NCBI GenBank assembly: GCA_951813625.1
Contig: CATOTS010000028.1
Span: 1-64,000, forward strand
Reading direction: 5' to 3'
DNA length: 64,000 nucleotides
Source: an uncultured Caldilineaceae bacterium
Lineage (GTDB): Bacteria > Chloroflexota > Anaerolineae > Caldilineales > Caldilineaceae
The translations under genes and the position numbers were made by a program. A model generated the notes under the pieces. The model ran no database searches, was not told the origin of the DNA, and saw only the letters and a list, made by a program, of their open reading frames with translations. The first letter of the stretch is position 1, and each line of letters starts with the position of its first letter. Of this stretch, positions 2,679 to 3,263 are shown one piece after another.

Positions 2679-3263
2679 CTACTCACTATCCAGCGCAATC
2701 AGCTGATCGAGCGCGGCGCGCAGGTCCGCCTCGGGTTGCGCTCCGACGAACTCCTGCACTACATTTCCGTTCCCGTCGAGCAGGATCAGGTGGGGCTGGT
2801 AGCGGAAGCCGAACTGCTGCTCGAAGGGCGCCGAGCCCTGGTCGTCAATGTCCAGATAGATGAACTCAACCTGTCCCCAGTAGTCGATTTCGAGCCTGTG
2901 AACCACAGGCGCAAAGCGGACGCAGATCGGTCACCAGAAGGCGAAAAACTCGATAACCTGGGGATGGCCCTGCCCGAGCACGACGGTCTGCGGGTCTGTG
3001 GCGATCATCTCTTCTCTGAACGCGGGCGGCGGCTCAAGCGCGACTTCGGTCGGCTCCGGTTCCGGCGGCGCCGTCGGTTCCGCGGTGACTGTCGGCTCCT
3101 CGACCGCCGTGGGCGTCGGTTCCGCGGCCGGCTGCTCGGTCGCCTGCGCCGCCTGTTCGCCCCCGGCAGCGGAACCGTCATCGCCAGAGATGGAGCTGCA
3201 GCCCGTAAACGCCAGCGCCAACAAGACGAGCAGAGGGACCAGCTGTCTGTGAAGTTTCGTCAT
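2679..3263 (-). CDS. thioredoxin-fold lipoprotein, candidate selenoprotein read through TGA at 2931-2933 (UxxC motif)
   Basis: ORFs 2931..3263 and 2679..2906 are in the same frame, separated by a single TGA and 8 sense codons. Joined protein: lipobox LAFTGC, then QVIEFFAFW-[TGA]-PICVRFAPVVHRLEIDYWGQVEFIYLDIDD...YQPHLILLDGNGNVVQEFVG. The TGA occupies the first Cys of a thioredoxin CxxC. Confidence 0.75.
2894..2910 (-). promoter_or_regulatory. candidate bacterial SECIS hairpin
   Basis: In mRNA sense GCCUGUG-GUU-CACAGGC: perfect 7-bp stem, 3-nt loop starting with G, 20 nt from UGA to stem and 27 nt from UGA to loop. Confidence 0.6.

Follow-up and report, generated by a model that had tools for sequence, protein, structure and literature searches.

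In bacteria, a SECIS hairpin brings SelB, GTP, and Sec-tRNA to the ribosome, which allows incorporation of selenocysteine (Sec) at the UGA. The SECIS of E. coli fdhF carries a bulged U in its upper stem. A published model of bacterial elements (bSECIS) describes a loop of 3–9 nt whose initial G is most often followed by G or U, on a stem of 4–16 bp, with a spacing of 16–37 nt and an MFE <= -7.5 kcal/mol (PMC13188914). The same work lists a verified UxxC thioredoxin selenoprotein, and names the NF041057 Rcas_1661 family as DsbG-like UxxC (PMC13188914).

Here, we evaluated a hairpin of this kind in a 64,000-nt stretch of DNA from an uncultured Caldilineaceae bacterium (“the window”), where an earlier note had claimed a SECIS-like hairpin at bacterial spacing, i.e., seven perfect base pairs capped by a GUU loop, with the stem 20 nt and the loop 27 nt after an in-frame UGA. 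Re-reading the minus strand gave exactly this: the RNA from 2910 to 2894 is GCCUGUG-GUU-CACAGGC, with seven base pairs and no mismatch, and both distances are as claimed from the UGA at 2933–2931 (Table 1). Compared to the fdhF SECIS, the hairpin lacks a bulged U, and it further differs from that prototype in its loop, a 3-nt GUU in the source genus and C-GUG-C in other families of the class. The claimed likeness to bacterial elements nonetheless fits the published model, as the hairpin is in frame and combines a 27-nt spacing, a GUU loop, hence a G-U loop start, a 7-bp stem, and a folding energy of -11.2 kcal/mol (PMC13188914). Like the bSECIS typified by E. coli fdhF, it is a coding-region hairpin after a UGA, with a small loop starting G-U, in a genome encoding SelA, SelB, SelD, and tRNA-Sec (PMC13188914).

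Table 1 Features of the predicted selenoprotein gene and its hairpin (window positions)
Feature	Position	Strand	Details
Thioredoxin-like selenolipoprotein CDS	2679..3263	minus	194 residues if the UGA is read through, Sec at 111, stop TAG; homologous frames interrupted by UGA alone
Signal peptide with terminal lipobox Cys (..LALAFTGC22)	3198..3263	minus	Read from the sequence; predicted lipoprotein anchor
Thioredoxin domain, residues 93-188	2700..2987	minus	Pfam Thioredoxin (PF00085) 47.1 bits (cut-off 23.5); PDB thioredoxins E=3e-13
In-frame UGA, predicted to be read as selenocysteine (U111)	2931..2933	minus	First position of UxxC; TGA in 16/16 genus homologs
Resolving cysteine codon, C114 of U-P-I-C	2922..2924	minus	Cys in 47/48 distinct Sec homologs, U in the remaining one
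SECIS hairpin	2894..2910	minus	5' arm 2910-2904, loop GUU 2903-2901, 3' arm 2900-2894

The folding energy of the isolated hairpin was matched by 0 of 200 shuffles, and of the 36864 ways to encode F-A-P-V-V-H-R-L synonymously, just 96 (0.26%) yield a perfect stem. When embedded in 56 nt of context, folding of the hairpin region was not significant (z=-0.82), and an Rfam scan of the whole window returned 0 matches at gathering thresholds. A covariance model that includes the hairpin sequence itself scored the site at 59.9 bits, the next match in the window reaching 9.3 bits. Stability of one sequence is, however, weak evidence for a hairpin, and comparison across homologs is decisive.

The protein encoded around the UGA has the active site W-U-P-I-C in a thioredoxin domain, separated from the lipobox by a Pro/Thr/Glu-rich linker. 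C22 is invariant across the 16 genus members, and most homologs across the class have a similar hydrophobic N-terminus with a Cys at its end. AlphaFold2 modeled the thioredoxin domain with a pLDDT of about 92–98 (overall pLDDT 84 with a class-wide alignment vs 59 with a genus-only alignment) and placed a helix, residues 112–127, directly after U111, while the best Foldseek matches of the predicted model were thioredoxins. Sequence and structure prediction both support a thioredoxin fold: as in the thioredoxin superfamily (PF00085), the domain scores above the Pfam cut-off, the predicted fold is that of thioredoxin, and UxxC lies at the start of a helix. The lipobox signal at the N-terminus and the length of the linker set the protein apart from thioredoxin itself, and it fell far under the NCBIfam thioredoxin equivalog (49.4 vs a cut-off of 96.8). 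Overall, the product is predicted to be a lipid-anchored, extracytoplasmic redox protein with a UxxC site, which would place it at the membrane in a redox role.

Among described families, the protein is most like the Rcas_1661 family NF041057 in being a thioredoxin-like (seleno)lipoprotein with UxxC. Membership was rejected, with a score of 20.5 bits vs a cut-off of 190 and an E<=1e-5 match in 1 of 28 family members. Rcas is the locus prefix of Roseiflexus castenholzii (Chloroflexota). No NCBIfam model exceeded its own cut-off for the 2679–3263 protein, and no literature on its family was found in the limited collection searched. The SECIS hairpin is a known kind of element, in a selenoprotein family apparently uncatalogued in NCBIfam.

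Next, we evaluated conservation of the UGA and the hairpin, first within the genus and then across the class Anaerolineae; the genomes compared are metagenome assemblies, and the named records among close relatives are Caldilineaceae metagenome assemblies. In the genus, 16 members yielded a homolog, and all 16 retain the UGA and have no second stop within the match. Across these 16, synonymous variation in codons U+5 to U+12 was 0.03 vs 0.33 elsewhere (permutation p about 3.5e-5), returning from U+13 onward. The Arg codon of the 3' arm is always AGG, CGC being usual in the gene. When 397 Anaerolineae genomes were searched with a profile (threshold E<=1e-22), 56 matches were obtained, 53 of them with an in-frame UGA. 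In every UGA locus examined (54 of 54), the UGA aligned with the Sec codon.

The earlier note had proposed looking for compensatory changes in homologs, and these were found, with the stem kept at the same offset in UGA-bearing homologs. All 48 distinct UGA-bearing sequences form at least five of the six outer Watson-Crick pairs at an identical offset, ungapped, through stems as different as GCCUGUG/CACAGGC, GCCCAUG/CAUGGGC, GUCCAUG/CAUGGAC, GCCCGU/ACGGGC, ACCUAC/GUAGGU, and CCGUC/GACGG. Overall, 92% of stem cells are paired in these 48 sequences, and two-sided changes occur at five of the seven pair positions. The covariation score was 0.407 vs 0.185 in shuffled alignments (reached in 0 of 500), while sliding the arms as a control gave a covariation of at most 0.162 and pairing of at most 43.8%. 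The loop is a GUU triloop in the source genus and several others and C-GUG-C elsewhere, in the same register, so that G-U occupies the same two loop positions in 48/48 distinct Sec homologs; the loop-closing pair is C-C in 20 of the 48. Among the UGA homologs, L080 has one C-A mismatch in its stem, and L097 and L098 pair at five of six outer positions and fold more weakly. In a separate observation, the active site of one homolog (L099:511-522, genome G243) holds two in-frame TGA codons and reads W-U-P-T-U-Q, which points to a UxxU form of the selenolipoprotein; the stem of this homolog is intact, GACCCAU[CGUGC]AUGGGUU.

Ten homologs carry TGC or TGT at the Sec site and serve as natural controls. 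They form 1.9 of 6 pairs vs 1.68 under a codon null, i.e., chance level (n=10). Equal conservation of the stem in Cys homologs lacking Sec machinery had been named in the earlier note as grounds for refuting its claim; instead, the compensatory changes seen with UGA are accompanied by loss of the stem with Cys, both in genomes without a convincing tRNA-Sec (G300, G753) and in genomes with one (G751, G752, G754-G757). Because a strong tRNA-Sec is retained in six of nine Cys-bearing genomes, hairpin loss tracks the loss of the UGA, not the loss of the machinery. In a midpoint-rooted tree that includes some long branches, Cys rows fall at three or more places among the Sec rows. This placement is in line with several Sec-to-Cys replacements, the tree itself being no proof of their direction. 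Two Cys homologs, L051 and L073, have most of the stem left, with one C-A mismatch that is the same as in the UGA row L080; judging from their sequences, these stems are apparently decaying after a recent Sec-to-Cys replacement.

The Cys homologs also differ from the Sec forms in their protein sequence downstream of the Sec site. Val at U+10 is found in 48/48 Sec forms vs 2/10 Cys forms, and Gly or Arg at U+12 in 47/48 vs 0/10, these two codons providing the G-U of the loop and a portion of the 3' arm. The SECIS may therefore have shaped the protein, with the U+10 and U+12 residues kept for their loop and stem codons and freed after Sec-to-Cys replacement, and with GUU and C-GUG-C both presenting the loop G-U to SelB at an equal distance; we put even confidence in this reading, which draws on few and partly related Cys sequences.

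The source genome encodes the four components of Sec insertion together: a tRNA-Sec whose anticodon is UCA (67.6 bits), SelA (547 bits over the model), SelB (313 bits, with the winged-helix domains SelB-wing_2 and wing_3 present), and SelD (330.8 bits). The selD gene (L136, contig C18:128253-129248) has its own in-frame UGA within CAGUASK and a hairpin with a GGUCG loop 32 nt downstream of that UGA, and from this sequence SelD is itself read as the second selenoprotein of the genome. Candidates for further SECIS elements in the source genome were rejected: the second-best matches of covariance model R1, at ~20 bits, covered UGA-side primary sequence only, with the stem deleted, and lay in frames that hold more stops and no recognisable redox protein. 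Among the UGA-bearing genomes tested, 23 of 24 have a tRNA-Sec of at least 65 bits. With stem conservation in the UGA homologs and Sec machinery in the genome, the earlier claim that the hairpin supports recoding was borne out.

Three other explanations can be weighed against this evidence. A true stop, pseudogene, or assembly error at the UGA, followed by a chance palindrome in coding sequence, could look the same in one sequence alone, and folding together with the flanks gave no extreme value. Such an accident would not, however, place a UGA at one and the same codon in 54 loci spread over many genera, with an intact frame before and after it, nor would it freeze synonymous sites and produce covariation, and we consider it extremely improbable. 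The stem could also follow as a by-product from a conserved protein sequence (P-V-V-H-R/G-L-E) and codon bias, with no selection on the RNA: much of the helix is indeed conserved as protein, and the loop G-U is formed by the first two bases of the invariant Val codon. The codon null, in which every protein is recoded according to its own codon usage, is informative on this point. Recoded proteins reach 3.34 of 6 Watson-Crick pairs, vs 5.81 observed in the 48 sequences (Z=18.9, which is no formal probability since the sequences are related), and all six pairs form in 39 sequences vs 0.5 expected. Despite this kinship, the codon null and the slid-arm control agree in direction, which indicates that stem pairing is selected. 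Together with the invariant AGG where CGC is usual, the variation of the same residues in Cys homologs, and the two-sided changes, this makes the by-product explanation very unlikely.

The remaining alternative accepts the UGA and hairpin as functional but without Sec, the UGA being read as another residue (e.g., Trp) or acting as a programmed stop with a regulatory hairpin. Taken alone, an in-frame stop and a hairpin would be compatible with a device for readthrough or attenuation as well. Against this, homologs swap the UGA for TGC or TGT (Cys) in a redox motif, and tRNA-Sec, SelA, SelB, and SelD are all present; moreover, some genus homologs use TGA as a real stop, so that UGA is not generally Trp. 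We thus give this alternative almost no weight. Direct support comes from the hairpin, its conservation through compensatory changes, its dependence on the UGA, and the Sec machinery, and the hairpin is almost certainly a bacterial SECIS element lying inside the coding sequence of a selenoprotein gene. We infer that SelB binds it and that Sec is inserted at U111. In the proposed mechanism, SelB with GTP and Sec-tRNA(Sec) would bind the hairpin during translation, making contact via its C-terminal winged-helix domains, for which the exposed loop G-U would be the recognised feature, and would bring Sec to the UGA, which lies 20 nt upstream. Translation would then yield a thioredoxin-fold protein, lipid-anchored and extracytoplasmic, whose redox site is UxxC.

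When the gene neighbourhood was compared across families, no conserved partner was apparent. Near one Cys homolog (L075), a CcdA/DsbD-like membrane protein named by eye lies ~4 kb downstream and hints at electrons supplied from the cytoplasm. In the window, genes named by eye include two of amidase type flanking the selenolipoprotein region (1081-2622 and 4497-6026), an amidohydrolase-like gene (3553-4395), and a phytanoyl-CoA dioxygenase-like gene (5962-7002); this amidase/amidohydrolase/dioxygenase neighbourhood recurs among genus members and was not seen in other families. Further along (7580-13444, also by eye), three ZnuA-like metal-binding lipoproteins precede an ABC ATPase and a permease, with which they likely form a metal-uptake cluster.

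The selenoprotein family spans many Anaerolineae families, including Caldilineaceae, and standard annotation would be expected to end such genes at the UGA. It provides a clean comparative case of a bacterial SECIS, in which an RNA element is selected inside codons and natural Cys conversions act as the controls.
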